DNA of 64,000 nt from Pseudooceanicola batsensis HTCC2597 (lineage in GTDB: Bacteria > Pseudomonadota > Alphaproteobacteria > Rhodobacterales > Rhodobacteraceae): NCBI RefSeq assembly GCF_000152725.1, contig NZ_AAMO01000007.1:1-64000 (forward strand). The letters are read 5' to 3'. A program made the position numbers and the translations under genes. This document shows positions 10,455-29,070 of the stretch, piece by piece. Every line of letters starts with the position of its first letter. Position 1 is the first letter of the stretch. Below the pieces are notes generated by a model that was given only the letters and a program-made list of their open reading frames with translations, did not search any database and was not told the origin of the DNA.

Positions 10455-10540
10455 CAAATTCTCCATCTCGGTGGCCTGTGTATGTCTCCAGATCGCCAAG
10501 GCGCGCGTCTCGCGTCAGTGTTACGTTTTTCTACTCAGAG

Positions 10541-10678: not shown

Positions 10679-10708
10679 TTGACAGGGAAGTTAATACTAC
10701 CGTATGGT
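10679..10708 (+). promoter_or_regulatory. Predicted promoter of dctP with operator-like motif
   Basis: A consensus TTGACA at 10679-10684 and TATGGT at 10703-10708, 18 bases apart. The -10 box overlaps TACTACCGTATGG (10695-10707), which shares its first half with the motif in the divergent monooxygenase promoter. The leader to the TTG start at 10826 would be roughly 110 nt. Confidence 0.45.
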
Positions 10709-10825
10709 TTTTTGACCATTTTCTGGAGGGAAGATGTTCTGGAAGAGCGATCTCCTGGAGGGGAGGTCGCGATACTAAAAAATGGCTTGGGCGGTTTAGC
10801 TCACACACAACGGAGGAACGGATTT

Positions 10826-11974
10826 TTGTTTTACAGGGCACTAAATAGAACCGCTTTAACCGCCTCGGCGCTGCTTTTGGCAGGGGCGTTTACCGCAGAT
10901 GATGCGGCGGCGAAGTCACTTACATTGAACCAATATGTGCTTCCCAAACACGTGGTTGTCACCAAGGGTTCTATTCCGCTGATCGAAGAGATAAAAGAGG
11001 CCAGCGACGGCGAGATTGATATCAAGCTCTTTACCGGTGGTACACCGCTGAGTGCGCAGGCAACGCTTGGCGGCCTGCAGGCGGGCGCAGTCGATGCCGG
11101 GATGGTGATTTTGACCTATCATCCCGCCGAGTTCCCGGTGATACAATATCTCAACGATCTGGCGGCGCCTACAGATGACACGCTTGTCGTTGCCGGTGCG
11201 TTTAACGAATACGTTATGACCAAGTGCCAACGTTGCCTGGATGAATTCAAGGCGGCAGGTGTGGTCTTTACAGGTTCTTACACAGCTGCGCCGCTCCTTC
11301 TTGTCAACCGCGAGGTCTATCGCACTCCCGAGGATCTGATGGCCAAGCGGGTACGGATTCCGGGCGGTGACTACAACTCGCGTTGGGCGGATTATTTTGG
11401 CCTGTCGCCGATCAATGTGGGCGGTTCGGAAATTTATGAGATGATGAACCGCGGTGCGGTGGACATCACCCTCAATCCCGCCGCGATCCTTCAGACCCAT
11501 TCGCTTGCTGACGTTGCCAAGAGCGTGATCACAATGCCCGTAGCAATGCACCGGGTTTCGTCCCCCTTCGTGTTCGCTGCAGGCAGCTGGGCTGATCTGT
11601 CAGAGCAGGAGCGCCGTGCATTCCTCGATTCGACGTCGGCCGCGATGATGCGCATCACCGGAGCTTATCTGGAAGAATCCGAAGCAGCACTGGATGCGGC
11701 TCGGGCGGGTGGCGACCTCGAGGTCATCGAGCCGAGCGAAGAACTTAAGGCCAAGATGACCGAGTTCCAGGAGCAGGATCTCGACACGATCTATCGGATT
11801 GCCCGCGAGCAATACAAGATCGAAGACCCAGAAACGATCCGGGATGATTTCATCACTCTGGTCGAAAAGTGGAAAGGCATCGCCGAAGAAACCGGACGCG
11901 ACGCCCAGAAGATGGGTGAGCGTCTGCGGGACGACGTCTATTCCAACCTCGATGCGTCGAGCTACGGCCTTTGA
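10826..11974 (+). CDS. dctP: TRAP transporter solute-binding protein, DctP family
   Basis: A periplasmic binding protein of about 382 residues with a Sec signal peptide (a hydrophobic stretch around TALTASALLLAGAFTA, likely cleaved after DDAAA). The mature part has DctP features such as LGGLQAGAVDAGMV, LLVNREVYRTPEDLMAKRVR and a repeat of helices near the end. The start is taken as TTG 10826 because GGAGGA (10812-10817) precedes it by 8 bases and the signal peptide then begins at once; an upstream in-frame TTG at 10679 falls on the -35 box. It feeds the DctQM permease encoded 11 kb downstream (22746-24639). Ligands are usually carboxylates. Confidence 0.92.
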   Translation: MFYRALNRTALTASALLLAGAFTADDAAAKSLTLNQYVLPKHVVVTKGSIPLIEEIKEASDGEIDIKLFTGGTPLSAQATLGGLQAGAVDAGMVILTYHPAEFPVIQYLNDLAAPTDDTLVVAGAFNEYVMTKCQRCLDEFKAAGVVFTGSYTAAPLLLVNREVYRTPEDLMAKRVRIPGGDYNSRWADYFGLSPINVGGSEIYEMMNRGAVDITLNPAAILQTHSLADVAKSVITMPVAMHRVSSPFVFAAGSWADLSEQERRAFLDSTSAAMMRITGAYLEESEAALDAARAGGDLEVIEPSEELKAKMTEFQEQDLDTIYRIAREQYKIEDPETIRDDFITLVEKWKGIAEETGRDAQKMGERLRDDVYSNLDASSYGL

Positions 11975-12053: not shown

Positions 12054-12749
12054 ATGGCCTACTGGCATATACAGACCGAAGAGGCCGACGGCGTCCTGCT
12101 GATCGCGCTCAACGAACCTACGCAACGCAATGCCCTGAGCCTAGGGATGCGTGCGGAACTGGCCGAGGCGATTGCGCAGGGCCGTGACGATGACAGCGTT
12201 CGCGCGGTGGTTCTTACCGGGCGCGGCGGTGCCTTTTGCGCCGGGGGCGACCTGAAAAGCCTGCGCGAGGGGGCAGACCGGGCGATCGCCACGCGGCATC
12301 GCATTCAGGGTCTGCACGCCTGGTTCGCCGATTTCGTGGATTTCCCGAAACCTGTTGTCGTGGCCGTCGATGGCCCCTGTGCGGGTGCGGGCTTTAGCCT
12401 GGCGATGGCGGGGGATGCGATCCTTTGCACACCGCGCGCCTGGTTTTGCCAGATATTCGGACGAATTGGCGTCATTCCCGACATGGCGTCGCTTTACCTT
12501 TTGCCGCGCCGGATCGGGTTGCCCGCCGCGCGTGAGCTGATCATGACCGCGCGTCGCATGGGATCTGATGAAGCCCTTTCGCGGGGTTTTGTGAATGAAA
12601 TTGTCCCCGCTGACCGGCTTGAATCCGTGGCGCGGGATGTCGCTGCCCGTCTGGCGGACGCCGCAGGCGAAGGCTTTGTCGCGCGCAAGCAAGCGTTGAA
12701 CCATGCGTTCGAGCGCGCCCCTTTTCATGACCCTGCTGCGTTGCGGTAG
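12054..12749 (+). CDS. Crotonase-fold enoyl-CoA hydratase/isomerase-like protein
   Basis: A 231-residue crotonase. The oxyanion-hole loops are GAFCAGGDLKSL-like and GPCAGAGFSLAMAGD. At the two positions where true hydratases carry catalytic Glu, it has Ser (GFSLAM) and Phe (CQIFGRIGVIPD). The FGRIG-(I/V)-PD motif is seen in PaaG-type isomerase relatives, so isomerase or other crotonase chemistry is more likely than simple hydration. It is slightly short at the C-terminus for the family. It belongs to the run 12054-14717 and closely resembles the protein at 17440. Confidence 0.8.
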   Translation: MAYWHIQTEEADGVLLIALNEPTQRNALSLGMRAELAEAIAQGRDDDSVRAVVLTGRGGAFCAGGDLKSLREGADRAIATRHRIQGLHAWFADFVDFPKPVVVAVDGPCAGAGFSLAMAGDAILCTPRAWFCQIFGRIGVIPDMASLYLLPRRIGLPAARELIMTARRMGSDEALSRGFVNEIVPADRLESVARDVAARLADAAGEGFVARKQALNHAFERAPFHDPAALR

Positions 12750-12786: not shown

Positions 12787-13566
12787 ATGACCGACCTAAA
12801 ACTCCAGAACGACGGTGCCGTAACGCGCATCACCATCGACCGTACGGCAAAGTCGAATGCCCTGTCAGCCGACATGATGGAGGAGATCGCGGGCATCGTG
12901 CGCGGCATCGGCGGCGCACCAGGTGAGAACGCCCTGATCATTGACGCGGCGGGTGATCGCGGCTTTTCGGCCGGCGCCGATATCTCGGAATTGCGAGCCG
13001 GACGCGAGGGTCTTGAGCGCCAGGAAGAGGTGATCCTTGGCCTGTCCGAGGCGATCGAGACCTGCCCGGCGCTGATCATCACCGTGGCGCACGGTTACGC
13101 CAAGGGCGGCGGCACCATTTTCCCCTGTCTCAGCGATATTGTGATTGCGCGGGACGATTTGTCCGTCAGCTACCCCGAGATCCAGTTCCGCATGTATCCC
13201 TTTTTGCTGCACGCGTTGTTGATCCAAAAGATCCCAAGCTCCCTGGCTTGGCGGCTGTGCGCCACCGGACGTGCGTTGGCGGCCGATGAGGCGTTTGGGC
13301 TGGGGCTGGTCACGGAAGTATTGCCGGTAGAAGGATTTCGCGACCGGGCCGAGGAACGGGTCAGCCATTATCTGGATATTCGTGCTTCGCTTGCGCTGGG
13401 GCGTGAATTCTCTGAAAATGCTGCCGGCCTGCCATTTGGCGAACAGATGAAGCTTGCCGGGGGCATGATGCACCGCAACTTTGCAGCGCCCGGCGTGGAT
13501 GAGGCGATTGAACGTCACCGGGCGCGGTTGTCGTCGAAAACCAAAAACGCGGGGGCAGCACAATGA
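12787..13566 (+). CDS. Crotonase-fold enoyl-CoA hydratase/isomerase-like protein
   Basis: A 259-residue crotonase with the CoA-binding loop GFSAGADISELRAG and the second loop HGYAKGGGTIFPCLSD. The second catalytic Glu position is kept (SYPEIQFRMYP), while the first is not an acid, as in many isomerases and hydrolases of this superfamily. It shares the stop/start overlap (ATGA) with the acyl-CoA dehydrogenase at 13563, so they are co-translated. The precise reaction is unknown. Confidence 0.82.
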   Translation: MTDLKLQNDGAVTRITIDRTAKSNALSADMMEEIAGIVRGIGGAPGENALIIDAAGDRGFSAGADISELRAGREGLERQEEVILGLSEAIETCPALIITVAHGYAKGGGTIFPCLSDIVIARDDLSVSYPEIQFRMYPFLLHALLIQKIPSSLAWRLCATGRALAADEAFGLGLVTEVLPVEGFRDRAEERVSHYLDIRASLALGREFSENAAGLPFGEQMKLAGGMMHRNFAAPGVDEAIERHRARLSSKTKNAGAAQ

Positions 13567-14717
13567 CAACCGAACGTCGCCGCCCCGGCGAAACCGTAGA
13601 CCGTGTCATGTTTCGCGATACATGTCGGCGTTTCGCCGAGCGTGAGATTGGCCCGATCTGGGAGAAGGCCGACCGTGAAAGCGAATTTCCGAGGCCGTTC
13701 TTTACCGCTGCCGCGAAGGCGGGTCTCATTGGTATTGCCGCCCCTGCCGACGTGGGGGGGGCCGATCTTGGTGTGTACGAAGAGGCGATCTGCATCGAGG
13801 AATGTGCACGTGTCAATCCAGGGCTTCCCAACGCGCTGATCATTCAGGGTGTGGCTGGCGGGATTCTGCATGACTTCGGGACTCCCGAGCAGCAGGACCT
13901 CGCACGGGCCTCGATCAATGGCGAGAAGATCCTGGCCATCGCGGTGACCGAACCCGATGCCGGTAACGACGTCCAGAACGTGAAGTCCACGGCGCGACGT
14001 GACGGTGACGACTGGGTTCTCGACGGGATCAAGTCCTTTATCACGCTGGCCGGTGAGGCCGATGTTCTGGTGCTGCTGGCACAGACCGACCGTGAGCGCG
14101 GTCGCGAAGGCATGAGCTTTTTTGCCGTTGATCGGAACAGCCCCGGTGTCGAGGTGTCGCGCATCCCCACCTATGCCAACCGTCCTGCCCCCACCTACCG
14201 GGTGCACCTGAACGGGGTGCGTGTTCCCGAGGCCCGGCGGGTTCCGGCGGGCTTTCGTCAGATCATGGCGGGGTTCAATCGCGAGCGTATCCTTGTGTCG
14301 GCGCGTTGGCTGGGACACATGCAGCACGCCCAGGACTGGGCGCTGGATTATGCCAAGACCCGCCACCAGTTCGGACGTCCGATCGGGGCCAACCAGTCCA
14401 TTGCCTTTATGCTGGCGCAGAACCAGACCGACATCGAAGCGGCGCGCCTTCTTGCCTATGAGGCGGCTGACCGCTGGGACAGCGGATGCCCGATTGGCGA
14501 TCTGATTCAGCAGGTATCCTGCGCCAAGCTGTTTGTGACCCAGGCGGTCGTGCGGGTCACCCAGTCTGCCTTGCACATTGGCGGCGGCTGGGGGCTTACC
14601 GAGGAGCTGCCCGTCATGCGCATGGCGCTTGACGCGCTCGTGGCGCCGGTCACGGTCGGCAGTTTCGAGATCCAGCTGCGCGCGATCGCAAAACAGCTTG
14701 GTCTTCCCTGCGACTGA
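13563..14717 (+). CDS. Acyl-CoA dehydrogenase
   Basis: A 384-residue FAD-dependent acyl-CoA dehydrogenase with all three family domains; motifs include TEPDAGNDVQNV, FITLAGEADVLVL and the C-terminal HIGGGWGLTEELPV. The usual catalytic Glu of the YEGT-EIQ motif is replaced (VGSFEIQ). A Glu is present in FNRERILV, the location used by isovaleryl-CoA dehydrogenase, which suggests a branched or bulky acyl-CoA. It introduces a 2,3-double bond and passes electrons to ETF. The start overlaps the preceding crotonase. Confidence 0.9.
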   Translation: MTTERRRPGETVDRVMFRDTCRRFAEREIGPIWEKADRESEFPRPFFTAAAKAGLIGIAAPADVGGADLGVYEEAICIEECARVNPGLPNALIIQGVAGGILHDFGTPEQQDLARASINGEKILAIAVTEPDAGNDVQNVKSTARRDGDDWVLDGIKSFITLAGEADVLVLLAQTDRERGREGMSFFAVDRNSPGVEVSRIPTYANRPAPTYRVHLNGVRVPEARRVPAGFRQIMAGFNRERILVSARWLGHMQHAQDWALDYAKTRHQFGRPIGANQSIAFMLAQNQTDIEAARLLAYEAADRWDSGCPIGDLIQQVSCAKLFVTQAVVRVTQSALHIGGGWGLTEELPVMRMALDALVAPVTVGSFEIQLRAIAKQLGLPCD

Positions 14718-15546: not shown

Positions 15547-17190
15547 TTATTTAGGGGCGGAAGCCCCGTTGCCGACTGCTTCTTCTGCCTGAGCGACCAG
15601 TACATGTCTCTGGATCTTGCCGCTTTCGGTCATCGGGAAATCGGTCGCGAAGCGCACATATCTCGGCACTTTGTAATCGGCGATCACCCCGCGGCAATGG
15701 TCGATCACTGATTTTTCGTCAATCGGATCGGCCCCTTCGACCCGGCGAATGAAGGCAAATCCCACCTGACCAAGCCGTTCGTGTGGAACCCCCACCACCA
15801 TTGCCTGACGGATTGCGGGATGCGTTTCCAGATGCGCCTCGATCTCGGCCGGGTAGGTGTTTGAGCCACCCACGATGAACATCTCCTTGATGCGACCTGT
15901 AATCTTCAGATAGCCGCGCGCGTCGAAGACGCCAAGATCGCCGGTGCGGAACCAGCCGTCCGAGGTAATCGCCTCGCGGGTCGCCTCGGGGTTGTTGTAA
16001 TATCCCATGGTGACGATATGGCCACGCACCTGCAATTCGCCGATCTCGTTGGCGCCCAGCGTCGCGCCGTTCCCCGGATCGACAATTCTTGCCTCGTAAT
16101 CGCCAATCAGTTTGCCTGTGTTCTCTTCGGCGACCTCAGGGGGATCATCGTAGTGCGCGAAGGTGGTCGAGATTGTGGTTTCCGTCATTCCGTAGGAAGT
16201 CAGGATATGCGGTGTCGAGAAGACCTCGCGGGCCTCGCGAACCACGCCGGGACTGATCGCGGCGCCACCGATCCATGCCGCGCGCACCGTACTCAGATCG
16301 CGCGGGCGCTTTGCCTGCGCATCGAAGCAGTCGAGAAAGTGTGTCGGAATCCCACCGAAATGCGCCACTTTCTCGGTTTCTATAAGGTCGAGCGCGCGTT
16401 CGGCGCTCCAATCAGGCATTACGATGAGGCTCATCCCGTGGATGACCGCCGGCAAAACGCCCATGAAGAGCCCGGCCACGTGGTAAAAGGGCATATGGGC
16501 AAGCGCCGCATCTCCGGTTTTCATGCCCATGACCTGCGCGACGTTCATCGACTGGCGAATGACCGCGTGGGAATGCATTGCGCCTTTCGGCCGTCCGGTT
16601 GTTCCGGACGTGTAGCAAATCAGCACCGGATCTTCGGGCTTGACCGCCTCGGTCGCGGCGCGAAGGCGTTCGGGGTTTGCCGGGGTGTCCAAAAGCGAGG
16701 CCATCGAGGTTGCGGCCGGGATATTTGTATCCTTCCAGGAGAAGATCGCATGCAGGTCGGGCAAGGCCTCGGAGTGGATGTCTCCGGGGCGTTGGCTGGC
16801 AAGATCGGGAATCACGGTGGACAGAAGTTCCGGATAGTCGATGCCCCAGCAGGTATCCATCATCAGCAACCCGCGGGCGTTGGACTGGCGCAGGATATAT
16901 TCCAGCTCGCCCGATTTGTACCTGGTGTTGATGGGAATCACGACCATTCCGATTCGGGCTGCCGCGAAAAGCATCCGCACCCAGTCGGGACTGTTCGTGA
17001 GCCAGAGCGCCACATGGTCGCCCCTTTCGAAACCCGCGGCAAGCAGCCCCTCTGCAACGCGGTCGACTTCTTCGTCCAAGCGCGCAAAGGTGATTCTGTC
17101 GCTTCCGGACACAAGGAAGTCGGCGTCAGGTTTTTCAGCGGCGATGCGACGCAGGAGGTCGCCCAAAGTTAGGTTTGCCGGATCTTGCAT
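15547..17190 (-). CDS. AMP-forming acyl-CoA synthetase (class I adenylate-forming)
   Basis: A 547-residue ligase that activates a carboxylic acid with ATP and CoA. It has the P-loop YTSGTTGRPKG (193-203), the A5 motif YGMTETTIS, the hinge region GDLGVFDARGYLKITGR and the C-terminal Lys motif ESGKIQRHVL. It most resembles medium/long-chain or cyclohexane-carboxylate/bile-acid type ligases rather than acetyl-CoA synthetase. ATG 17190 has AGGAAGAGG 7 bases upstream. It is transcribed away from the 17440 operon; its promoter at 17264-17292 shares the cluster A motif. The likely first step of the pathway. Confidence 0.9.
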   Translation of the reverse strand: MQDPANLTLGDLLRRIAAEKPDADFLVSGSDRITFARLDEEVDRVAEGLLAAGFERGDHVALWLTNSPDWVRMLFAAARIGMVVIPINTRYKSGELEYILRQSNARGLLMMDTCWGIDYPELLSTVIPDLASQRPGDIHSEALPDLHAIFSWKDTNIPAATSMASLLDTPANPERLRAATEAVKPEDPVLICYTSGTTGRPKGAMHSHAVIRQSMNVAQVMGMKTGDAALAHMPFYHVAGLFMGVLPAVIHGMSLIVMPDWSAERALDLIETEKVAHFGGIPTHFLDCFDAQAKRPRDLSTVRAAWIGGAAISPGVVREAREVFSTPHILTSYGMTETTISTTFAHYDDPPEVAEENTGKLIGDYEARIVDPGNGATLGANEIGELQVRGHIVTMGYYNNPEATREAITSDGWFRTGDLGVFDARGYLKITGRIKEMFIVGGSNTYPAEIEAHLETHPAIRQAMVVGVPHERLGQVGFAFIRRVEGADPIDEKSVIDHCRGVIADYKVPRYVRFATDFPMTESGKIQRHVLVAQAEEAVGNGASAPK

Positions 17191-17439: not shown

Positions 17440-18291
17440 ATGAGTAAGGAACGCCCCGAGGGGGGCGACTCTGAACTGCGTCGTGACCTGGCTACTATGA
17501 GCTATGAGTTGCGCGAAGGGGTCGCTATTGTCACTTTGAACCGTCCTGAGGCGCGCAACGCGCTGGACGTCCCGATGCGTCAGGAGCTTGCCGACCTGAT
17601 CGCCGAGATCCGCGACGATGACCGGGTGAAGGCCGTGATCCTGACCGGTGCCGGCGGGGTCTTCTGCGCAGGCGGAGATCTTCGGGGTCTGAAAGAAAAA
17701 CGCACGTCAGCGCAATCCTACAAGCGTATTGCCGACCTTCACGTATGGCTGCCAAGTCTGGTAAATCTGGAAAAGCCGGTGATTGCGGCTGTGGATGGCC
17801 CGGCCTTTGGCGGGGGGATGAACCTCGCGCTTGCGGCCGACTTTGTTCTGGCCAGCGACAACGCCCGTTTCTGTCAGGTTTTCGGCCGTATCGGTCTGGT
17901 CCCCGATCTCGCGGGCATGTCTTTGCTGCCGCGTCTTGTGGGTCTGCAACGTGCCAAGGAGCTGGTGTTTTCCGGCCGGACGTTGCGACCGGACGAGGCC
18001 AAGGAAATGGGGATCGTTCACAGCGTCCATGCGCCTGATCAGCTTCAGGATGCGGCCTTTGCGCTTGCGCGCAGGTTCTGCAACGCTTCGACCCTGGCGA
18101 TCGGACTGGCCAAGAATATTCTCAACCAGTCTTTCAATCTGGATCAACGCGCGATGGCCGAGCTCGAAGCAATGGCCCAGGCGCTGTGTATGGACAGCAC
18201 GTATCACAAAGAAGCAGTCCAGCGCTTCCTCGACAAGGAACCGGCGCTGTTTGACTGGGATAGTATGGACAAGAAAGAGGCAGCCACATGA
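17440..18291 (+). CDS. Crotonase-fold enoyl-CoA isomerase/hydratase-like protein
   Basis: A 283-residue crotonase, first gene of a tightly packed operon reaching 25828. The loops FCAGGDLRGL and GPAFGGGMNLALAAD form the CoA pocket. Both hydratase Glu positions are changed, to Asn in GMNLAL and Phe in CQVFGRIGLVPD, as in the 12054 protein. The GLVPD motif points to PaaG-like isomerases. ATG 17440 follows GGGAGGAG; a second ATG at 17497 sits nearer the usual family start. Its stop overlaps the aldolase start (ATGA). Confidence 0.82.
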   Translation: MSKERPEGGDSELRRDLATMSYELREGVAIVTLNRPEARNALDVPMRQELADLIAEIRDDDRVKAVILTGAGGVFCAGGDLRGLKEKRTSAQSYKRIADLHVWLPSLVNLEKPVIAAVDGPAFGGGMNLALAADFVLASDNARFCQVFGRIGLVPDLAGMSLLPRLVGLQRAKELVFSGRTLRPDEAKEMGIVHSVHAPDQLQDAAFALARRFCNASTLAIGLAKNILNQSFNLDQRAMAELEAMAQALCMDSTYHKEAVQRFLDKEPALFDWDSMDKKEAAT

Positions 18292-19436
18292 AGAAAGCCG
18301 TCGTCACAGGGTCTTACAGCACCAAAGTCGGAGAGCTGGAGGGCGCCACCTGCATGTCGCTCCATACCGAAGCAGGGCTAGGCGCGCTGGCCGATGCCGG
18401 GCTGGCAGTGTCCGAGGTTGATGGCCTGCTTTGCGCCTATTCCTTTACCGAACCGCATCTGATGCTGGCATCGGTATTTGCCGAATATGTCGGAATGAAG
18501 CCGGCCTATGCCTCGGCGGTCTCGATGGGTGGGGTTACGGCCTGCATGTTGGTAATGCAGGCAGCGGCTCTGGTCGAAGCGGGCTATTGCCGTCACGTGC
18601 TGGTTGTGACCGGCGATAACCGTCTGAGCGGGATGCGCGGCAACGCTGTCCAGGCTTTGGCCGAAGTCGGCAACCAGCAGTACGAGCAGCCCTACGGCAT
18701 GACCATACCCGCAGCCTACGCCCTTGTGGCACAGCGCTACATGTCCGAATTTGGCGTGACGTCGGAACAGCTCGCTGCGATCGCGGTGACCATGCGCGAA
18801 CATGCGGTGTTGAATCCCAAGGCACATATGAAAACACCGTTCACGGTAGACGATGTGATGAACTCGCGTTTCATTGCCACACCGCTGCACCTGCTTGATT
18901 GCTGCCTGATATCTGACGGAGGGGCCGCAGTTGTGGTCAGCGCTGCGGATGCGGCTGCCGATCTCAAGAAGCCTCGTATCGACATTCTCGGCACCGGGCA
19001 GGGCCATACGCATGAATATATTGTCGCGGCGCCTTCGCTGACAGATTACGGCTGTAAACGCTCTGCTGCGGATGCATTGGGTCGGGCCGGTCTGAAGCCG
19101 TCTGACATTGATGTGGTGGAGATATACGACAGCTTTACCATTACGCTGCTCGCCGAGCTGGAATCCATGGGGTTCTTTGAGCGCGGCGAAGCTGGCGCGG
19201 CTGCGGCGGCAGGCGATTTGAAGATTGGCGGCAAACTGCCTTGCAATACTCACGGCGGGCTGTTGTCATACGGGCATTCCGGCGCAGCAGGCGGCATGTT
19301 CCATGTGGTCGAGGCGGTCGAGCAGTTGCGCGGCGAGGCCGATGGCCGACAAGTCGAGGGGGCGGAGCTCGCGCTTGTTCATGGTGATGGCGGTATTCTG
19401 TCCGCTCACTGTTCCGTTGTTCTGGGGAGGGCCTAA
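18288..19436 (+). CDS. Thiolase-fold aldolase, Ltp2-like (lipid-transfer-protein type)
   Basis: A 382-residue thiolase-superfamily protein of the SCP2/Ltp type. The nucleophilic Cys of thiolases is missing: the segment reads ASAVSMGGVTA (75-85). Two tyrosines, Y280 in EIYDSF and Y328 in LSYGHSG, stand where studied Ltp2 retro-aldolases have their catalytic tyrosines, spaced nearly the same. The thiolase at 47235 has His and Lys at these points and keeps its Cys. Ltp2 enzymes cleave beta-hydroxyacyl-CoAs with a tertiary alcohol and need a DUF35 partner, which is encoded next at 19440. Predicted role: retro-aldol cleavage of a branched acyl-CoA. The substrate is unknown. Confidence 0.85.
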   Translation: MKKAVVTGSYSTKVGELEGATCMSLHTEAGLGALADAGLAVSEVDGLLCAYSFTEPHLMLASVFAEYVGMKPAYASAVSMGGVTACMLVMQAAALVEAGYCRHVLVVTGDNRLSGMRGNAVQALAEVGNQQYEQPYGMTIPAAYALVAQRYMSEFGVTSEQLAAIAVTMREHAVLNPKAHMKTPFTVDDVMNSRFIATPLHLLDCCLISDGGAAVVVSAADAAADLKKPRIDILGTGQGHTHEYIVAAPSLTDYGCKRSAADALGRAGLKPSDIDVVEIYDSFTITLLAELESMGFFERGEAGAAAAAGDLKIGGKLPCNTHGGLLSYGHSGAAGGMFHVVEAVEQLRGEADGRQVEGAELALVHGDGGILSAHCSVVLGRA

Positions 19437-19439
19437 CAG

Positions 19440-19829
19440 ATGGAAAAACCCGTTCCACGTCCGAATGCAGATTCCGCACCGTTCTGGGAAGGTTGCGCTG
19501 CGCATGAATTCCGGTTTCAGCGCTGTAACAGCTGCGGCAAGCCGCAGTTCTATTCCCGCGCTGTCTGTGCCCATTGTCAGGCCACTGACCTAAGCTGGGA
19601 GGTAGCTGCCGGCGAGGGCACCGTTCACAGCGTAACAACAGTCCATCGCGGGCCAAGCGTGGCTTTCAAGGAAGACTCTCCCTACCAGGTCGCGCTTGTC
19701 GACATGGATGAGGGTTTCCGCTTCATGGCGAACGTGCGCGGAGGTGAGGCCGAGATCGGCACGCCGGTGCGCGTCATTTACGAAAAACGCGGCGATCAGA
19801 CGATCCCGCAGGTCGAAATCCGGGGGTGA
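19440..19829 (+). CDS. DUF35 zinc-ribbon/OB-fold partner protein
   Basis: A 129-residue protein. The N-terminal zinc ribbon has cysteines at 29, 32, 43 and 46 (CNSCGKPQFYSRAVCAHC), followed by an OB-fold with the family pattern GEGTVHSVTTVHRGPS. DUF35 proteins form obligate complexes with thiolase-fold partners; in actinobacterial steroid side-chain breakdown this domain is fused to the MaoC protein ChsH2 and binds Ltp2. Here it is a free protein 3 bases after its predicted partner. Confidence 0.9.
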   Translation: MEKPVPRPNADSAPFWEGCAAHEFRFQRCNSCGKPQFYSRAVCAHCQATDLSWEVAAGEGTVHSVTTVHRGPSVAFKEDSPYQVALVDMDEGFRFMANVRGGEAEIGTPVRVIYEKRGDQTIPQVEIRG

Positions 19830-19831
19830 TT

Positions 19832-20215
19832 ATGTTCAATTACGACCACTTCGAGGTTGGGAAAAACTACGGTAGCGATACCTTTACTGTGGACCGCGAC
19901 CGGATCGGCAAATGGCTTGCCGTCTATCCTGATGATGACAACGGCGATATGATGCCTCCGGGCATGACCGCGATGATCCAGATCCAGTGCTACATGGCCT
20001 GCATCACGCCGCGCCCGAAAGGCAACGTGCACGGAAGCCAGTTCTTTGAGCTGCACCGGTTACCGAAGGTGGGCGAGACTTTGACCACCGATGTGGAGTG
20101 TACCAAAAAGGAAATCCGCAAAGGGCGAAAGTGGGTCGAAACGACCTATACCACGCGTGGCGGCGAAGGCGATGTTGTCTTCACCGGCGTGATGACGACC
20201 CTTGTGGCGGCCTGA
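19832..20215 (+). CDS. MaoC-like hotdog protein, probably non-catalytic subunit
   Basis: A 127-residue single hotdog domain with the FAS1-type/MaoC N-terminal pattern (FEVGKNYG, MMPPGM, GSQFFELHRLPKVGE). The Asp-x4-Asn-x4-His hydratase site is absent. In heteromeric hydratases such as ChsH1-ChsH2 one subunit also lacks the site. The next gene supplies the active version, so the two probably form a mixed dimer. ATG 19832 is preferred over GTG 19826, which overlaps the previous stop. Confidence 0.78.
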   Translation: MFNYDHFEVGKNYGSDTFTVDRDRIGKWLAVYPDDDNGDMMPPGMTAMIQIQCYMACITPRPKGNVHGSQFFELHRLPKVGETLTTDVECTKKEIRKGRKWVETTYTTRGGEGDVVFTGVMTTLVAA

Positions 20216-20233
20216 GCGCAGAGAGGAACCGAG

Positions 20234-20605
20234 ATGCCAAAACAGCTGGAACCCGTTAGCCTGATGATCGAGATGCCGACGATCATGGCCTATGCCGATC
20301 TTACTGACGATTATAACCCCATCCATGTGGATCGGGAATTCGCCGAGAAGACCGAGATGAAGGGCATTATCGCCCATGGTACGATGTCGCTGAACATGAT
20401 CTGGAGATCATTGCGGCAGACGCTGGGAAATGAGGCCGTGGCCGGCACCCGTCTGGACATTCGCTTTGTGCGCCCTGTGCGCGAGAACGATGTTGTGACC
20501 GGCGGCGGCGTCGAGCGTGAAGATACGCCCGGCACCTATGACGTCTGGGTACGCAATCAAAAGGACGAGCCGGTCATCACCGGCACGGCCACGGTATCGC
20601 AATGA
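20234..20605 (+). CDS. MaoC-family (R)-specific enoyl-CoA hydratase
   Basis: A 123-residue hotdog protein with the hydratase-2 motif DLTDDYNPIHVD (about 25-36), which contains the catalytic Asp and His, and FVRPVREND near the end. It adds water to a 2-enoyl-CoA. Paired with the 19832 protein and followed by the aldolase step, it would make the tertiary alcohol the aldolase needs. Stop overlaps the start of the ADP-forming ligase (ATGA). Confidence 0.88.
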   Translation: MPKQLEPVSLMIEMPTIMAYADLTDDYNPIHVDREFAEKTEMKGIIAHGTMSLNMIWRSLRQTLGNEAVAGTRLDIRFVRPVRENDVVTGGGVEREDTPGTYDVWVRNQKDEPVITGTATVSQ

Positions 20606-22749
20606 GGAACCAAGGCGGGTCCGAAGAGGATTGCACGGCCGTTCCGTCCGATACTGAAAAGCTCCGCCGGGTTCTCAATGCGCGAAGTATCGCGGTGGTG
20701 GGTGCCTCGGACGATTTGCGCAAACCAGGGGGGCGCGTGGTTAACGCGCTGCTTCATAACAGTTTCCCGGGCAAGGTCTATCCGGTGAATCCGGGCCGGG
20801 AGACGATTCAGGGTCTGGAATGTCATCCATCGCTGGCCGCGATCGCAGAGCCGGTCGATCTGGTGATCCTGTCCGTACCCGCCGACGATGTCCCCAACCA
20901 GCTGCGCATGGGATGCGATTGCGGCGTTGGCGGCTTCATCGTCTTTGCCTCGGGTTTCTCGGAAATCGGGCCGGAAGGCGTGGCGCGACAAGCCGAGATC
21001 TCCAAGATCGTGCAGGACGCCGGCATTCCGATGATCGGACCGAACTGTCTGGGCATCATGAACGGCAACCACAAGATGCTGGCTTCGTCGACGGTGGTGA
21101 TGGGTGGTCGGAAACTGCCGGGTGGCAATTACGGCTTTATTTCCCAGAGTGGCGCGCTCGGCACTTACTGGTTGGATATGTCCATGAAGGCCGGACTTGG
21201 TGTGAGCTCCTGGATTTCCACCGGCAACGAGGCAGACGTCGATTTGGCGGCCTGCCTGGATTATCTGGTTGAAGACGATGAGACCGAGGTGATCGGGCTT
21301 TATATCGAGGGTGTGCGCGATGGGGCTGCCTTTCGCGCCGCGGCACGAAAAGCCTTTGAACGTCGCAAGCCGGTTCTGGTGCTCAAATCCGGCAGCAGCC
21401 GTCAGGGTGCCACCGCAGCCGCCTCGCATACCGGGGCGCTGGCGGGTGAGGACGAAGCCTATGACGCGGTTTTCCGGCAGTATAACATCTGTCGCAGTGA
21501 CAGCCTGACCGATATGGCCAACAAGGCCGAGATCCTTCTGACGCAGCCCCGCTCCGCCGGGCAGCGGGTGGTGGTCATCTCGGTTTCGGGCGGTGCCGGC
21601 GTGCTGATGACGGATGCCGCAGTGGCCGAAGGGCTGGACGTTCCTGACTTTTCCCCGGAAACCAAGGCACGGCTGGTCGAGATACTTCCCGGATTTGCAT
21701 CGCCGCAGAACCCGATCGACCTTACCGCGCAGATCGTGATGCACAAGACGATGCTGCGCGAGGTTCTTCAGATCATCAGCGATGGTTCCGGATTCGACGG
21801 TGTGCTGCTGTTCATGGGGGGTCTCAGCCAGATCGCCGAGGAACTGGCCGATGCGCTGGTCAGTGAACTGCCGCGCGACATGCCTTGTGCGCTGACCTGG
21901 CAGGCAGCTCCCGAAGAAACGGTACAGCATGTGCGTGATCGGGGTGTTCCGGTCTATGGTGAAATCGGCGATGCCGCCCGCGCGCTGGCCGCGCAGTTCC
22001 GTATGGGGGCGGGCTGGGACAGACCTGTGCCGCCCGAAGCCCCGACGATTCAACTGGGGGGGCGGGCGACCGGTCCCTTTGCGGTGGAGCATCTGAGCAA
22101 GGACCTGCTCTGTGACGCGACCTCTCTTCAACGGCCTGTCGGCGTGTTCGCGACCGATGCCGATCAGCTGAAGAAGGTCGGCGCGTCTCTGACGGCGCCT
22201 TTGGTGGTGAAGCTGCAAAGTCCCGAAATGCTCCACAAGAGCGGTAGCGGCGGCATTGCGTTGGGTCTTGAAAGCGTCGAGGCTGCGGCCGAGGCAGCGC
22301 GTAAAATGATTGAGTCCGCAACTGAACGCGGCATCTCTGTTGACGGTGTGCTGGTCGAGGAAATGGTTCCTTTTGATCACGAATTCATCGTCGGCCTGCG
22401 CTGTGATCCGGTTTTCGGTCCGATGCTTGTGCTTGGGCGTGGCGGGGTTACGGTTGAGCTGGAACCGGATGTGACCCGGGCTTTCCTTCCTCTGACTGCC
22501 GAGCAGATCGAGGATCTGATCCGCTCTCTGCGCGCGGCACCGTTGCTGGAAGGGTTCCGTGGGGCAAAGCCTTGCGATATTGCCGGACTGGCCCGCACCG
22601 TCAAGGAATTGTGCGACCTTTATCTAAGCGACGAAACGCTGAGCGAAATCGAGATCAACCCTCTCGTGGCGGACCGCAACGGGCGCTTTGTCGCGCTTGA
22701 TGCGCTGGTCGCGAGATCGCTCGAAGACTCCGGGGGCGGCACGCCATGA
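20602..22749 (+). CDS. ADP-forming (NDP-forming) acyl-CoA synthetase
   Basis: A 715-residue fused enzyme. The N-terminal CoA-binding domain starts with SIAVVGASDDLRKPG. A succinyl-CoA-synthetase-like flavodoxin region carries the phospho-His motif AASHTGALAG (His 276). The C-terminal ATP-grasp domain has VVKLQSPEMLHKSGSGGI and EEMVPFDHEFIVG. Acs/AcdA-type enzymes activate or release acids reversibly using ATP/ADP. In this operon it could serve a short acid set free by aldolase cleavage or the substrate itself. It shares 4-base overlaps with its neighbours. Confidence 0.9.
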   Translation: MRNQGGSEEDCTAVPSDTEKLRRVLNARSIAVVGASDDLRKPGGRVVNALLHNSFPGKVYPVNPGRETIQGLECHPSLAAIAEPVDLVILSVPADDVPNQLRMGCDCGVGGFIVFASGFSEIGPEGVARQAEISKIVQDAGIPMIGPNCLGIMNGNHKMLASSTVVMGGRKLPGGNYGFISQSGALGTYWLDMSMKAGLGVSSWISTGNEADVDLAACLDYLVEDDETEVIGLYIEGVRDGAAFRAAARKAFERRKPVLVLKSGSSRQGATAAASHTGALAGEDEAYDAVFRQYNICRSDSLTDMANKAEILLTQPRSAGQRVVVISVSGGAGVLMTDAAVAEGLDVPDFSPETKARLVEILPGFASPQNPIDLTAQIVMHKTMLREVLQIISDGSGFDGVLLFMGGLSQIAEELADALVSELPRDMPCALTWQAAPEETVQHVRDRGVPVYGEIGDAARALAAQFRMGAGWDRPVPPEAPTIQLGGRATGPFAVEHLSKDLLCDATSLQRPVGVFATDADQLKKVGASLTAPLVVKLQSPEMLHKSGSGGIALGLESVEAAAEAARKMIESATERGISVDGVLVEEMVPFDHEFIVGLRCDPVFGPMLVLGRGGVTVELEPDVTRAFLPLTAEQIEDLIRSLRAAPLLEGFRGAKPCDIAGLARTVKELCDLYLSDETLSEIEINPLVADRNGRFVALDALVARSLEDSGGGTP

Positions 22750-23306
22750 TAGAACAACAGGATCCGTCCGAGATCTTGCCGGATGAGGTGCCCCCGCCGC
22801 TCACCGGGATGTCAGATATCTTTGACAAAGCACTGATCCTGCCGGCACGGATACTTGCGGTTGGCGGCGCTATGCTGCTGATCGCGATGATGCTTGTGAC
22901 CGTGACTGACGTTACCATCCGCACACTCTTTCACGGGGCCATCAAGAACGCGGAACTGATGACAAGTCATTGGTTTCTCAGCGGAGCGATCTTTCTTCCT
23001 CTTGCTTTCATCACGGTGCTCGACCGGCATATTTCGGTCGAGGTCGTGTCGCAGTTCCTGCCGATCAGGGTGCAACAGATCAAGATGGGCATCTTCATGG
23101 TTGTGGGGGCCGGCATCTTTCTTTTGCTGGCGTGGCAATCCTGGGAATTGGCGTTGGAGAAGATGCGACTGCGTGAATATCTTTCGGGCGCAACACGGTT
23201 CTATACTTGGCCGGGCAGATTCATGATGCCCGTGGGAACCTTTCTTTTCGCTCTTGCAATGGCAGCACGGGCCGTGGGGTATTTCTCCGGTCGTGTGAAG
23301 CCTTAA
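22746..23306 (+). CDS. dctQ: TRAP transporter small permease, DctQ family
   Basis: A 186-residue membrane protein with four predicted hydrophobic helices (near 31-55, 70-92, 108-128, 156-180) and the DctQ signature WFLSGAIFLPLAFITVLDRH. It starts within the previous stop and is followed by dctM after 19 bases. DctQ couples the binding protein to the large permease in Na+-driven TRAP import at the inner membrane. Confidence 0.92.
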   Translation: MIEQQDPSEILPDEVPPPLTGMSDIFDKALILPARILAVGGAMLLIAMMLVTVTDVTIRTLFHGAIKNAELMTSHWFLSGAIFLPLAFITVLDRHISVEVVSQFLPIRVQQIKMGIFMVVGAGIFLLLAWQSWELALEKMRLREYLSGATRFYTWPGRFMMPVGTFLFALAMAARAVGYFSGRVKP

Positions 23307-23325
23307 TGAACCGGGGAGCCCGTTT

Positions 23326-24639
23326 ATGACAGACTTGCAAATTGCCGGGGGATCCCTCGCAATTATCGTTTTCTTGGTGATGCTGCGAATGCCGATCGCC
23401 ATCGCGCTGCTCAGCGTATCCTTTGGCGGCATCTGGATGGCTTACGGCTATCCGATCGCTTCCGCGACGCTGACGGCCGTGACTTTCGATTTTTCCACTC
23501 ACTCCAGCCTCAGCCCGATCCCGATGTTCCTGCTAATGGGTTTTGTTGCCTATTACGCGAAGATGACAACACAATTGTTTGACTTCGCCAGGGCGAGCTT
23601 TCTCATGCGGCTGCCCGGCGGGCTTGCGGTGGCGTCGATTGGTGGCTCGGCCATGTTCTCGGCCGTCACCGGATCGAGCCTTGCCTGTGCTGCCGCCATG
23701 GGGCGGATCGCGGTGCCCGAGATGCTTCGGGCGGGCTATCAGCCCGGCTTGGCTACTGGGGTGGTCGCCGCCGCCGGAACCCTGGGGTCGATGATCCCGC
23801 CCAGCCTGATCCTGCTCTTGTTCGGTATCTTCGCTCAGGTGCCGATCGGGACGCTGTTCATCGGGGCTATCATTCCCGGCTTGCTGACAGCCTTTGCCTT
23901 TGGGCTGATGGTGGTTCTACGGGTGATGGTGAACCCGTCACTGGCCCCGCGTCCCACTCAGGAAGAGCTTGCCCATCTGGGCAAGACGGGCCTGCGTGAC
24001 ATCTGGCCGATCCTTCTGTTGATCGTCAGCGTCTTCGGCGGCCTGTTTGCCGGTCTCTTTACCGCCACCGAAGCAGGTGCGGTCGGAGCGTTGTTGTCGA
24101 TTGTGATCGCGGCCGCGAAAGGCAGCCTGTCCTGGACCGTTGCGAAACGTGTGGTGACCGACACTCTCGTGAGTTCGGCCGCCATTCTTATCATCGCAAT
24201 GAGCGCCACCTTCTTTGCCAGCTTCCTTGCTCTGACGCAGCTTCCGGCACATATCTCTCAGATCGTTGCGGATCTGAACTTTGGCCCGGTCGGGCTGATG
24301 ATCGTGGTCTTTCTTCTTTATCTTGTGCTGGGCATGTTCCTTGAGGTTCTGGGCATCATGCTGCTCACGCTGCCGGTGCTTCTGCCGCTCTTTGAGACAA
24401 TGGACATCAGTCTTATCTGGGTTGGCATTCTGCTGGCGAAGTATCTTGAGATGGGCCTGATTACGCCGCCCGTCGGATTGAATGTCTTTGTGATCAAGAG
24501 CGTCGTTGGGCGCGCCGTCCCTACGGACGTCATCTTCCGAGGCATCGCCTGGTTTGTGGCGACCGATATTGTGGTGGTTGCGTTGTTGATCGCCTTTCCG
24601 GAGCTGACGTTGTGGCTCCCGAGTTTCTTGGAATGGTAA
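23326..24639 (+). CDS. dctM: TRAP transporter large permease, DctM family
   Basis: A 437-residue integral membrane protein with about 12 hydrophobic segments and DctM motifs such as PIPMFLLMGF, AAAGTLGSMIPPSLILLL and the closing EMGLITPPVGLNVFVIK. It forms the transport pore with DctQ and is served by the periplasmic DctP at 10826. Being inside the operon that carries the degradative enzymes, it probably imports their substrate. Confidence 0.94.
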   Translation: MTDLQIAGGSLAIIVFLVMLRMPIAIALLSVSFGGIWMAYGYPIASATLTAVTFDFSTHSSLSPIPMFLLMGFVAYYAKMTTQLFDFARASFLMRLPGGLAVASIGGSAMFSAVTGSSLACAAAMGRIAVPEMLRAGYQPGLATGVVAAAGTLGSMIPPSLILLLFGIFAQVPIGTLFIGAIIPGLLTAFAFGLMVVLRVMVNPSLAPRPTQEELAHLGKTGLRDIWPILLLIVSVFGGLFAGLFTATEAGAVGALLSIVIAAAKGSLSWTVAKRVVTDTLVSSAAILIIAMSATFFASFLALTQLPAHISQIVADLNFGPVGLMIVVFLLYLVLGMFLEVLGIMLLTLPVLLPLFETMDISLIWVGILLAKYLEMGLITPPVGLNVFVIKSVVGRAVPTDVIFRGIAWFVATDIVVVALLIAFPELTLWLPSFLEW

Positions 24640-24661
24640 ATCAGTATTTGAAGGAGCGAAC

Positions 24662-25828
24662 ATGGATTTCGCATTGAATGACGAACAAAAAGAACTTCAG
24701 GAGGCAATCGGCAAGGTTTGTGCGAAGTTCGATCTTGCTTACTGGCGCGACTGCGATGCGAGCGAACGCTATCCTGAGGAATTCTATCGCGAGATGGTAA
24801 ACGGAGGTTGGGTCGGGCTGACCCTGCCGTCCGAGTATGGCGGTGCCGGGCTTGGCATCACCGAAGCGGCGCTGGTGATGCAGACAATCGTTGAATCTGG
24901 CGCAGGCTTTACCGGAGCCTCGACCATCCATTCGTATGTGTTCGCCCCGAACGCGATTGTGGTGCATGGCACGGAGGAGCAGAAGAAGCGGATGCTGACG
25001 CCGCTCATCAAGGGCGAGGAAAGAGCCTGCTTTGCGATTACCGAGCCGAATTCCGGGTTGGATACCAGCAGGTTGCAGACCCGCGCCGTGCGCAAGGGTG
25101 ACCATTACGTGATGACCGGCGAAAAGGTCTGGCCGACAGCGGCAAGCATGGCCCAGCGGATGCTGGTCATCGCGCGGACCAAGCCGATCGAGGAATGCGA
25201 ACGCCCGATTGACGGGCTGAGCCTGTTCTACACGCGGATGGACCCCGATTACGTGAAGACCCGGAAAATTCCGAAGCTGGGCCGCAACGCGGTTGAATCC
25301 TGCCAGATCTTTATCGACGGGTTGAAAGTGCCCGAAGAGGACAGGATCGGCGAGGAAGGCAAAGGGTTTTACTATCTTCTCGACGGGCTGAACCCCGAAC
25401 GGATACTGGTGGCTGCGGAATCGGTGGGGCTTGGCCGGGTCTCTCTGAGAAGAGCCACAGAATATGCCAAGGAACGGGTGGTCTTTGACCGTCCCATCGG
25501 CAAGAACCAGGGCATCCAGCATCCGCTTGCGAAAAGCTGGATGGAGCTCGAATCCGCGAACCTGATGATGCTGAAAGCGGCGACGCTTTATGACGCGGGG
25601 GAACCCTGCGGGGCCGAGGCCAACAGCGCCAAGTATCTTGGTGCGGAAGCCGGTTACCGGGCTTGCGAATGTGCTGTGATGACCCATGGCGGCTACGGCT
25701 ACGCCAAGGAGTTCGACGTCGAGCGCTACCTGCGGGAGGTTATGATCCCACGTCTGGCGCCGGTCAGCCGCGAACTGGTGATGTGTTATATCGCCGAGCG
25801 CGTGTTGGGCCTGCCCAAGTCGTACTGA
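24662..25828 (+). CDS. Acyl-CoA dehydrogenase
   Basis: A 388-residue enzyme with ITEPNSGLDTSRL, a K-W substitution in the flavin segment (GEKVWPTAASMAQ) and the C-terminal ending RLAPVSRELVM...ERVLGLPKSY typical of a distinct subfamily. The standard C-terminal catalytic Glu is absent; Glu 246 in LNPERILV sits where isovaleryl-CoA dehydrogenase has its base. This is the last gene of the long operon. Together with the 13563 enzyme it may form a mixed oligomer or serve a separate oxidation step. Confidence 0.9.
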   Translation: MDFALNDEQKELQEAIGKVCAKFDLAYWRDCDASERYPEEFYREMVNGGWVGLTLPSEYGGAGLGITEAALVMQTIVESGAGFTGASTIHSYVFAPNAIVVHGTEEQKKRMLTPLIKGEERACFAITEPNSGLDTSRLQTRAVRKGDHYVMTGEKVWPTAASMAQRMLVIARTKPIEECERPIDGLSLFYTRMDPDYVKTRKIPKLGRNAVESCQIFIDGLKVPEEDRIGEEGKGFYYLLDGLNPERILVAAESVGLGRVSLRRATEYAKERVVFDRPIGKNQGIQHPLAKSWMELESANLMMLKAATLYDAGEPCGAEANSAKYLGAEAGYRACECAVMTHGGYGYAKEFDVERYLREVMIPRLAPVSRELVMCYIAERVLGLPKSY

Positions 25829-26479: not shown

Positions 26480-26893
26480 ATGGCCGACCATAAGTTCAGA
26501 CCCGAGATCGAAGTCCTTTCTGCCGAAGACGTGCCGCGTCGGCGATACTGGGATGATGCGGACAAGATCCGGATCGTAGAGGAGAGCTTTCTGGGGCACC
26601 GCCAGGTCTCGGCGACGGCGCGGCGGCATAGTGTGTCGCGCTCGTTGCTGACGATATGGCGGCGGCAGTATCGCGACGGTGAGCTTGGCAACGAGGCGCC
26701 GCCTTCGTTTTTCCCGCTGAGGGTTTCGCCCAAGGCGCCTGCGGCAGTGTCCGTTACGGCGCAGGAGGCGCCGCGCGACACCCCGGACGTCCAGCTCGAG
26801 ATCGTGCTCAGAAACGGTCGGCGGCTTCTGGTCCCGTCTTCGGTGGACCCGGAGATTTTGGCGCGGCTGCTACCTGCCCTGGAGTGCCGATGA
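26480..26893 (+). CDS. tnpA: IS66 accessory protein TnpA (in truncated element)
   Basis: Full-length 137-residue TnpA, same as the product of 6572-6985, with the N-terminal helix-turn-helix region. It lies in an IS66 remnant that lacks the rest of its operon, so it is probably a passenger. Confidence 0.9.
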   Translation: MADHKFRPEIEVLSAEDVPRRRYWDDADKIRIVEESFLGHRQVSATARRHSVSRSLLTIWRRQYRDGELGNEAPPSFFPLRVSPKAPAAVSVTAQEAPRDTPDVQLEIVLRNGRRLLVPSSVDPEILARLLPALECR

Positions 26894-27093
26894 TCGCCTT
26901 CCCGGCGGGGGTGCGCGTGTGGATCGCAGGCGGAGTGACGGACATGCGGCGCGGTATGAACACCCTGGCGCTGACGGTTCAGCAGGGTCTCGGGCGCGAT
27001 CCGCATGCCGGCGAGATCTTCTGCTTCCGCGGGCGCAAGGGCGACCTGGTCAAACTTCTTTGGCACGACGGGGTCGGTATGTCGCTCTACACG
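26890..27093 (+). pseudogene. tnpB: IS66 tnpB, 3'-truncated
   Basis: First 68 codons of TnpB, up to GVGMSLYT, where the intact copy continues with KRLEAGKF. The IS3 element at 27094 supplies a stop at once. Confidence 0.93.
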
Positions 27094-27160
27094 TGACCTG
27101 CCCCCCGCGAAATCCCTCACCATGATGTAGAGTCTGCGCCAACTCTGAAGGAGCAGACGA

Positions 27161-27424: not shown

Positions 27425-27429
27425 CGACG

Positions 27430-28320: not shown

Positions 28321-28346
28321 ATGAGGGACCGGCAGGGGGCAGGTCA

Positions 28347-29027: not shown

Positions 29028-29070
29028 CTCACAGGGGCGTTTGCGCGGGTCATTCTGCCCTTGTTTTGTT

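Follow-up and report, generated by a model that had tools for sequence, protein, structure and literature searches.

The DNA analysed here, 64,000 nucleotides of Pseudooceanicola batsensis HTCC2597 (hereafter the window), is part of a 285-kb contig in a 4.4-Mb genome and carries a module of four adjacent genes for a thiolase-fold putative retro-aldolase (ALD), a DUF35 partner protein and two MaoC-type subunits, MaoCi and MaoCa. All four genes were verified and make up a single compact operon, with gaps of 3, -4 and 18 bp between the reading frames:

18288..19436, + strand: ALD, putative retro-aldolase of thiolase fold; Cys nucleophile replaced by Gly82, motif Y280-D-S282-F, H330
19440..19829, + strand: DUF35 partner; C29-x2-C32-x10-C43-x2-C46 zinc ribbon and OB fold (Pfam zf-ChsH2 and OB_ChsH2_C)
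19826..20215, + strand: MaoCi, hot-dog subunit without the catalytic motif; weak match to FAS1_DH_region, resembles the inert partners of heteromeric hydratases
20234..20605, + strand: MaoCa, catalytic MaoC subunit (MaoC family); D26-x-N28-P-x-H31

The original prediction, made from the DNA letters, had read these genes as separate counterparts of ChsH1, ChsH2-MaoC, ChsH2-DUF35 and Ltp2, and the reading frames, protein families and gene order were confirmed. Hydration and retro-aldol cleavage, which it had named as the likely reactions, are supported by the sequence, and the module very probably performs both on branched or ring-bearing acyl-CoAs.

Active site of the thiolase-fold protein and its partners

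By sequence the closest PDB relatives of ALD are 4u4e (294 bits), the Sal aldolase 9myr (208 bits) and the Ltp2 aldolase 6ok1 (202 bits), and its single-chain model (pLDDT 85.5, pTM 0.90) again gave 4u4e, CtSal 9myr and TcLtp2 6ok1 as leading fold matches. One genome scan yielded 69 loci, of which 61 passed the filter (ALD identity of at least 55%, coverage above 80%) and eight were dropped from the residue counts; together with the Roseovarius indicus and Azospirillum plasmid loci and the window this makes 64 aligned ALD rows. As predicted, the nucleophilic Cys is missing: Gly82 aligns to the Cys nucleophile of active thiolases and is Gly in all 64 rows. Nor does a thiolase Cys align elsewhere, since the Cys residues kept in at least 95% of the rows (205/206, also present in TcLtp2, 256 and 375) all miss the nucleophile position. 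The SCP2-type thiolase signature (Cys nucleophile and HDCF) is not found in ALD, which has YDSF instead. Gly81, Gly82, Tyr280, Asp281, Phe283, Asn320, Gly323, Gly324 and His365 are invariant throughout, and the invariance of Tyr280, Asp281 and Phe283 argues that catalysis has been kept.

Tyr280 and Tyr328 had been proposed as the equivalent of the Ltp2 catalytic tyrosines. PMC12329534 gives Tyr294 as base and Tyr344 as acid of TcLtp2, and for CtSal names Tyr302 and Cys304 as catalytic, with Gln352 in the Tyr344 place. Tyr280 aligns to both Tyr294 and Tyr302, and this half of the proposal stands. Tyr344 lies 50 residues past Tyr294, and an ungapped count leads in ALD to His330, which puts Tyr280/His330 in the same +50 register as Tyr294/Tyr344 and Tyr302/Gln352. 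Tyr328 was therefore rejected as the second catalytic Tyr, as it is two residues off the Tyr344 register and is Tyr in 53 of the 64 rows but Phe in 11. The third residue of the YDxF motif is Ser in 41 rows and Cys in 23, never the His of Ltp2 (YDHF), and the Tyr is present in every row. Judged on aligned residues, the ALD site (Y280/S282/H330) is unlike those of Ltp2 (Y/H/Y), Sal (Y/C/Q) and IpfD (Y/A/Y); ALD would work like Ltp2 and Sal, yet its active site does not support calling it an Ltp2.

The candidate for the acid is His330, the retained thiolase GHP histidine, but this role is a guess and several points speak against it. His330 is not universal, the +50 site being His in 41 of the 64 rows and Ser in 23, and residues 323-329 just ahead of it have a pLDDT <50 in the model. 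Ser282, for its part, is unlikely to be the sole acid because the C304S variant of CtSal is inactive.

In the tree the window clade comprises 57 rows (support 100/99) and ALD lies outside Sal and Ltp2. TcLtp2 groups with L085_RoxyB and L088-L090 and not with the window clade, the placement of both TcLtp2 and CtSal being unsure, as they were flagged as long branches. Positions 282, 322, 330, 366 and 367 of ALD fall into two sharp types without mixtures: among the 62 orthologue loci, a set without the window and R. indicus, 39 are S/H/H/G/D, as is the window, and 23 are C/N/S/T/L. The 18 C/N/S/T/L rows kept in the tree form a single clade (100/100), which points to a single historical switch and not to repeated covariation. 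Directly after MaoCa, the C/N/S/T/L loci carry a second Cys-less aldolase-like gene, full-length in 16 and partial in one (L052) of the 22 loci that could be tested, i.e., those with MaoCa on the same strand. The same test found it in 0 of 19 loci of the S/H/H/G/D type. These second copies (L046, L047, L050, L052-L062, L064, L066 and L069) show 40-43% identity where full-length, and those inspected have YDSF and His at +50. At the C282/N322/S330 loci the first copy may have turned into a partner subunit, with the second copy as the catalyst.

A search of the own genome for ALD paralogues gave nine places. The three closest after ALD (L005, L006 and L007) are on the same contig and all Cys-less, and the paralogue in L004 has the thiolase Cys. 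On this contig (G000 C7) L005 occupies 4992-6164, L006 starts at 6196 and L007 at 15520; these genes are of YDSF or YDAF type and adjoin DUF35 genes, so that the contig resembles a stack of such modules. The L006 gene has a close copy on a Paracoccus plasmid, and plasmid records of Sulfitobacter and Pseudosulfitobacter gave five matches each.

The DUF35 protein has 9myr_B and 6ok1_B as best PDB matches. Every Cys of its C-x2-C-x10-C-x2-C zinc ribbon is present in 71 of 71 rows, making it a C4 site of the ChsH2 type and not C3H1 as in Shy. D26, N28, P29 and H31 of MaoCa are kept in 47 of 47 rows; the catalytic motif occurs in 0 of 47 MaoCi rows and a bare D-x4-H within the first 60 residues in two. 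The expectation of one active and one inert MaoC protein thus held, but the motif given for it, D-x4-N-x4-H, did not and is D26-x-N28-P-x-H31. The only Pfam match of MaoCi is FAS1_DH_region, with 20.5 bits versus a cut-off of 22, a family reached at E 0.05 by 12 of the 39 members of the MaoCi alignment. Its single-chain model is a confident hot-dog fold (pLDDT 94.6), with chains of HadAB entries as best fold matches and ChsH1-ChsH2 entries at ranks 36 and 41 among the best 50. An inert hydratase partner is a known design in ChsH1-ChsH2 and HadAB (PMC11321319). MaoCi and MaoCa are supported as inert and catalytic members of a hydratase, which presumably pair.

Conservation of the module, its island and the monooxygenase

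Genes near ALD in the 62 orthologue loci were labelled by BLAST against 75 proteins. In 38 of these loci the four genes stand side by side with order and strand unchanged, an arrangement too well conserved to be due to chance. Seven of the other 24 loci end at a contig edge (L018, L020, L021, L026, L030, L032 and L042), and in L035 and L040 DUF35 or all three partners lie on the opposite strand. MaoCi alone was undetected in L019, L022 and L031 and MaoCa alone in L027 and L051, absences that may be misses given the detection floors (38% identity for DUF35, 30% for MaoCi, 38% for MaoCa, coverage above 80%). DUF35 was detected in 60 of the 62 loci, 1.4 kb off in L025 and L042; the exceptions, L021 and L030, are both at contig edges.

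The module is part of an island that extends from 8784 (monooxygenase) to 25828 (second acyl-CoA dehydrogenase), in which 17440-25828 consists of nine coupled + strand genes with intergenic gaps of -4 to 22 bp. Its other genes are:

8784..10499, - strand: type I Baeyer-Villiger monooxygenase (BVMO); nearest PDB relative OTEMO (3uov), then phenylacetone and cyclohexanone monooxygenases
10679..11974, + strand: TRAP substrate-binding protein DctP; NCBIfam NF037995 above cut-off
12054..12749, + strand: ECHa, crotonase-type enoyl-CoA hydratase/isomerase; every model below cut-off
12787..13566, + strand: ECHb, crotonase-type; every model below cut-off
13563..14717, + strand: ACAD1, acyl-CoA dehydrogenase; 68% homologue close to the module in L026, L028, L030, L036 and L067
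14801..15520, + strand: TetR-type regulator; below cut-off, so annotated in R. indicus
15547..17190, - strand: AMP-forming acyl-CoA ligase; Pfam AMP-binding, NCBIfam models listed all below cut-off
17440..18291, + strand: ECHc, crotonase-type; 4-bp overlap with the ALD gene
20602..22749, + strand: ADP-forming acyl-CoA synthetase; Pfam domains, NCBIfam models below cut-off
22746..23306, + strand: DctQ, TRAP small permease; named from position and the R. indicus homologue, no NCBIfam match
23326..24639, + strand: DctM, TRAP large permease; TIGR00786 above cut-off
24662..25828, + strand: ACAD2, acyl-CoA dehydrogenase; family match

A monooxygenase had already been noted among the neighbours, but its identity as an OTEMO-like BVMO, which bears on the product, had been missed. 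The protein scores 571 bits with OTEMO, 540 with PAMO and 483 with CHMO, and carries the fingerprint FGGTAFHTYDWP at 192 (FxGxxxHxxxW[P/D] type I motif) as well as GxGxxG at 48 and 218. By these scores and motifs it is a type I Baeyer-Villiger enzyme nearest to OTEMO of the camphor pathway. Further BVMO genes were seen in the own genome (G000 C5:47356-56406 and C4:56072-57631), one of them adjoining SDR, ABC-transporter and ADP-forming ligase-like genes.

Seven loci are close relatives of the island (L009-L014 and L078); five of them hold the BVMO, L012 is truncated, and L009 lacks it within 10 kb. In L014 the BVMO gene adjoins the module, and for the rest of the island the 10-kb flanks gave nothing of similar identity. 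A survey of co-occurrence covered the window's class with 289 genomes, counting the own one, and scored at most six ALD and four BVMO candidates per genome. ALD homologues (E <=1e-60) occur in 73 of the 289 genomes and BVMO homologues (1e-100) in 68, and 47 genomes besides the own one hold both. With the own genome left out and pairs counted by eye, six BVMO-ALD pairs within 10 kb were found in five genomes (G082, G095, G143, G195 and G197), versus 1.1 expected from uniform placement. Gene order in L088 is ACAD-ACAD-ALD-DUF35-BVMO, the DUF35 and BVMO genes overlapping. L089-L092 also hold both BVMO and aldolase-like genes, and the aldolase-like proteins of L088-L092 lack the Cys; in the tree L088-L090 go with TcLtp2 (96/69, weak) and L091 and L092 with the YDAF group. 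In L090, Rhodococcus ruber and Rhodococcus oxybenzonivorans the aldolase-like/DUF35 and BVMO genes belong to a single run and are separated by one or two genes. The BVMO clusters of the latter two species hold a thiolase-like and DUF35 pair, and both thiolase-like proteins are Cys-less.

The stretch carrying the four genes looks plasmid-like. On the R. indicus plasmid pRIdsm_01 the same cluster is annotated, with an ALD homologue of 94% identity; in strain DSM 26383 of this species the BVMO is 84% identical. Transposase-like ORFs, read by eye, flank the island at 7469-8539 and 26480-30594 of the window and suggest that it moves as a unit; the R. indicus copy is bordered by IS5 and IS21/IS66 genes. 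Another region of acyl-CoA catabolism, at 38238-64000 of the window, includes by BLAST labels acyl-CoA dehydrogenases, crotonases, a thiolase-like gene at 47235-48419 and, at 52999-54798, an AtuA-like gene, a content that hints at terpenoid acids.

Proposed route and its alternatives

The route proposed here would serve acyl-CoAs whose beta-carbon defeats ordinary beta-oxidation. The TRAP system would import the acid, and the acyl-CoA ligase and an acyl-CoA dehydrogenase would convert it to a beta-branched or exocyclic 2-enoyl-CoA. MaoCa (D26/H31), together with the inert, substrate-binding MaoCi, would add water to give a beta-hydroxy acyl-CoA, probably a tertiary one. The ALD dimer, clamped by DUF35, would then split the C-alpha/C-beta bond, with Tyr280 accepting the proton of the beta-hydroxyl, Gly82 occupying the former place of the Cys, and His330, perhaps aided by His322 and with Ser282 in the XDCX place, reprotonating the enolate. 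Acetyl- or propionyl-CoA and a ketone would be released, the adjacent OTEMO-like BVMO would oxidise the ketone, most likely cyclic, to a lactone, and the ADP-forming ligase, the crotonases and ACAD2 would complete the chain. We infer the subunit assembly, the residue roles, the step order, the ketone product and the cyclic substrate from gene content, conservation, residue alignment and single-chain predicted folds.

A tertiary hydroxyl bars oxidation and thiolysis, as PMC8399759 describes for the steroid C3 chain. Since a tertiary beta-hydroxyl cannot be oxidised for thiolysis, retro-aldol cleavage to a ketone would be the way out. For a cyclic ketone a BVMO is a usual next enzyme, and given both a ketone product and a BVMO the simplest choice of substrate class is an alicyclic or terpenoid acid; ALD would yield a ketone, probably cyclic, for oxidation by the BVMO. 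The six BVMO-ALD pairs in the survey and the low-identity BVMO-like genes at five orthologue loci count in favour of such a link. The full scheme with the BVMO acting last is put forward tentatively, at somewhat less than an even chance. For the hydratase/retro-aldolase reading and this scheme blended into one judgement our confidence is moderate; the rival explanations partly overlap with it, so that the likelihoods do not sum to one. The most far-reaching form of the proposal, a third catalytic solution within the DUF35-dependent thiolase-fold aldolases (Tyr280 as base, His330 as acid, Ser282) in a ketone-forming lyase for tertiary beta-hydroxyacyl-CoAs that is coupled to Baeyer-Villiger ring oxidation, is possible but doubtful.

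A number of observations weigh against the proposed scheme. Ten loci leave room behind ALD-DUF35 but, at the thresholds used, yielded neither MaoC gene. No BVMO-like gene lies in the examined flanks, many of them cut by contig ends, of 53 of the 62 orthologue loci; the nine that have one are four Roseovarius-type loci and five in which it is of low identity (28-41%; L025, L047 in two pieces, L048, L063 and L065). The six pairs versus 1.1 expected are no clean test because catabolic genes cluster anyway, and two of the five genomes share one genus. The thiolase-like protein of Rh. oxybenzonivorans has CDNF for YDxF, the base Tyr thus missing too. Among the ten next-best plasmid BVMO matches after R. 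indicus (H42-H51; flanks of 10-15 kb, gene table incomplete), two have a thiolase-like/DUF35 pair, seven do not and one is unannotated. The island's named genes include no lactonase and no hydroxy-acid dehydrogenase. Finally, the substrate of OTEMO is a CoA ester, by the full name of the enzyme in PMC5225235, and an enzyme of this kind would precede the aldolase.

This last point is the starting point for a camphor-like route with the BVMO first. An imported 2-oxocycloalkyl-acetic acid would become a CoA ester, a lactone and then a beta-methyl enoyl-CoA, MaoCi/MaoCa would hydrate the methyl-bearing carbon, and ALD would release acetyl-CoA and a methyl ketone. OTEMO being the nearest PDB relative favours this order, as do the two CoA ligases of the island and the steps from trimethylpimelyl-CoA to isobutyryl-CoA, which PMC6027186 calls poorly characterised. 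However, a plasmid cluster of Sphingobium xenophagum that is camphor-like by gene names (P450, LLM flavin enzyme, BVMO) has within 12 kb (incomplete gene table) no DUF35 or further thiolase-like gene but a beta-ketothiolase, and the island itself has neither a P450 nor an LLM-type flavin enzyme among its named genes. On these grounds the camphor pathway proper was rejected; a BVMO-first order in general is kept as the main rival but appears rather unlikely. Almost as much can be said for a real aldolase that is Sal-like, turning a secondary beta-hydroxyl into an aldehyde, or IpfD-like, with an aromatic diol as substrate, the BVMO belonging to an independent pathway that shares the island. The 53 loci without a BVMO-like gene fit this, and so does the unfused proteobacterial pair IpfD/IpfE, whose products in ibuprofen degradation are 4-isobutylcatechol and propionyl-CoA (PMC9195938). 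Neither a ring-hydroxylating dioxygenase nor an aldehyde dehydrogenase is among the named island genes, though, and L014 keeps the BVMO by the module in flanks where the other island genes were not found, so that we regard this explanation as unlikely.

A side-chain aldolase for steroids or bile acids, of the Ltp2 or Sal kind and acquired by a marine alphaproteobacterium, would explain why these are the closest characterised structures and why the subunit list is that of ChsH1-ChsH2-Ltp2. It is nevertheless very improbable: KshA_C (PF19298) and TIGR03213, two steroid-ring families, gave no match in the 92%-complete own genome (with no steroid-degrader as positive control), ALD falls outside Sal and Ltp2 in the tree, where both are long branches, and the DUF35 zinc site is C4 and not the Sal-type C3H1. 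Least probable of all is that ALD, with its DUF35 partner, is a normal thiolase or acyltransferase comparable to BbsAB, PhlBC and the archaeal acetoacetyl-CoA thiolase, or a dead scaffold. Fold and partner are alike and the best NCBIfam models of ALD are acetyl-CoA acetyltransferase and thiolase-domain families (below cut-off), but a thiolase or acyltransferase function was rejected on account of the Gly at the nucleophile position, YDSF stands for HDxF, and Tyr280, Asp281 and Phe283 do not vary.

The relatives of ALD bear annotations such as thiolase family protein or acetyl-CoA acetyltransferase, and for the Cys-less ones such thiolase-type names very probably give the wrong reaction. With homologues in 73 of the 289 genomes, a correct assignment would alter many annotations. 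If the aldolase does feed the BVMO, this would give a rule for side-chain removal from ring or fully substituted carbons, as in terpenoid and naphthenic acids, and the rule would apply equally to several further aldolase subfamilies encoded beside BVMOs. It would also provide a candidate gene for an alicyclic-acid (cyclohexylacetate-type) lyase, reportedly known as an activity only.

Comparison with known systems

A DUF35-dependent thiolase-fold aldolase with a MaoC hydratase is already known, proteobacteria included. According to PMC12502768, ORF40-44 of Comamonas testosteroni encode a proteobacterial hydratase-aldolase of the same kind, and a TA441 mutant in which the MaoC and DUF35 domains were expressed apart kept both activities. 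The unfused state is therefore of little weight; the original prediction had drawn attention to an unfused module in a proteobacterium, but this is not exceptional, the ipf pair on pIBU218 and the orthologue loci being unfused as well. The literature among the matches listed, in which most subscription journals are not covered, describes neither the module nor the BVMO-aldolase link, and as far as these searches show the active-site type, the clade and the BVMO link are new.

With ChsH1-ChsH2-Ltp2 (T. curvata and M. tuberculosis systems; C. testosteroni ORF40-44) the module shares the Cys-less thiolase fold, the base Tyr, the C4 zinc-ribbon DUF35 and the combination of one catalytic and one inert MaoC. 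In ChsH2, however, DUF35 is fused to the inert MaoC, whereas the module has separate ORFs overlapping by 4 bp, and Ltp2 has YDHF and Tyr344 where ALD has YDSF and His330 (39% identity over aligned positions with TcLtp2). CtSal-CtShy of C. testosteroni (9MYR) has in common the fold, the base Tyr, the Gly at the Cys site and the DUF35 partner. CtSal differs by Cys304 (YDCY) and Gln352 at +50, compared with Ser282 and His330 in ALD (38% identity), and Shy is a fused homomeric MaoC-DUF35 protein with a C3H1 zinc site, unlike the unfused C4 arrangement of the module. In 23 of the 64 ALD rows position 282 is Cys as in Sal, but position 330 is then Ser.

IpfD/IpfE of Rhizorhabdus wittichii, whose genes on pIBU218 were assigned by their order beside ligase and dioxygenase genes, is likewise an unfused aldolase and DUF35 pair without a Cys nucleophile on an alphaproteobacterial plasmid. 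IpfD is 35% identical to ALD and differs by YDAF, Tyr at +50, dioxygenase neighbours and the lack of a MaoC gene annotated nearby. Also on this plasmid (L098), at 30939-32093 (- strand), is another aldolase-like gene; it bears the true Ltp2 signature (YDHF, EAY) and adjoins an OB-fold gene. The nearest solved structure, the structural-genomics 'thiolase' 4u4e of Sphaerobacter thermophilus (43% identity), also has YDSF and His at +50; its title gives no function, it has NTN for the NTH of ALD, and it lies outside the window clade in the tree.

Closest in chemistry is (1-hydroxycyclohexan-1-yl)acetyl-CoA lyase (EC 4.1.3.35), reportedly an activity of an Arthrobacter described in 1982, for which we know of no gene. 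The old cyclohexylacetate route is said to use 1-hydroxycyclohexylacetyl-CoA lyase and then cyclohexanone monooxygenase. This is the chemistry proposed here for the module, with acetyl-CoA and a cyclic ketone as products and Baeyer-Villiger oxidation as the following step.

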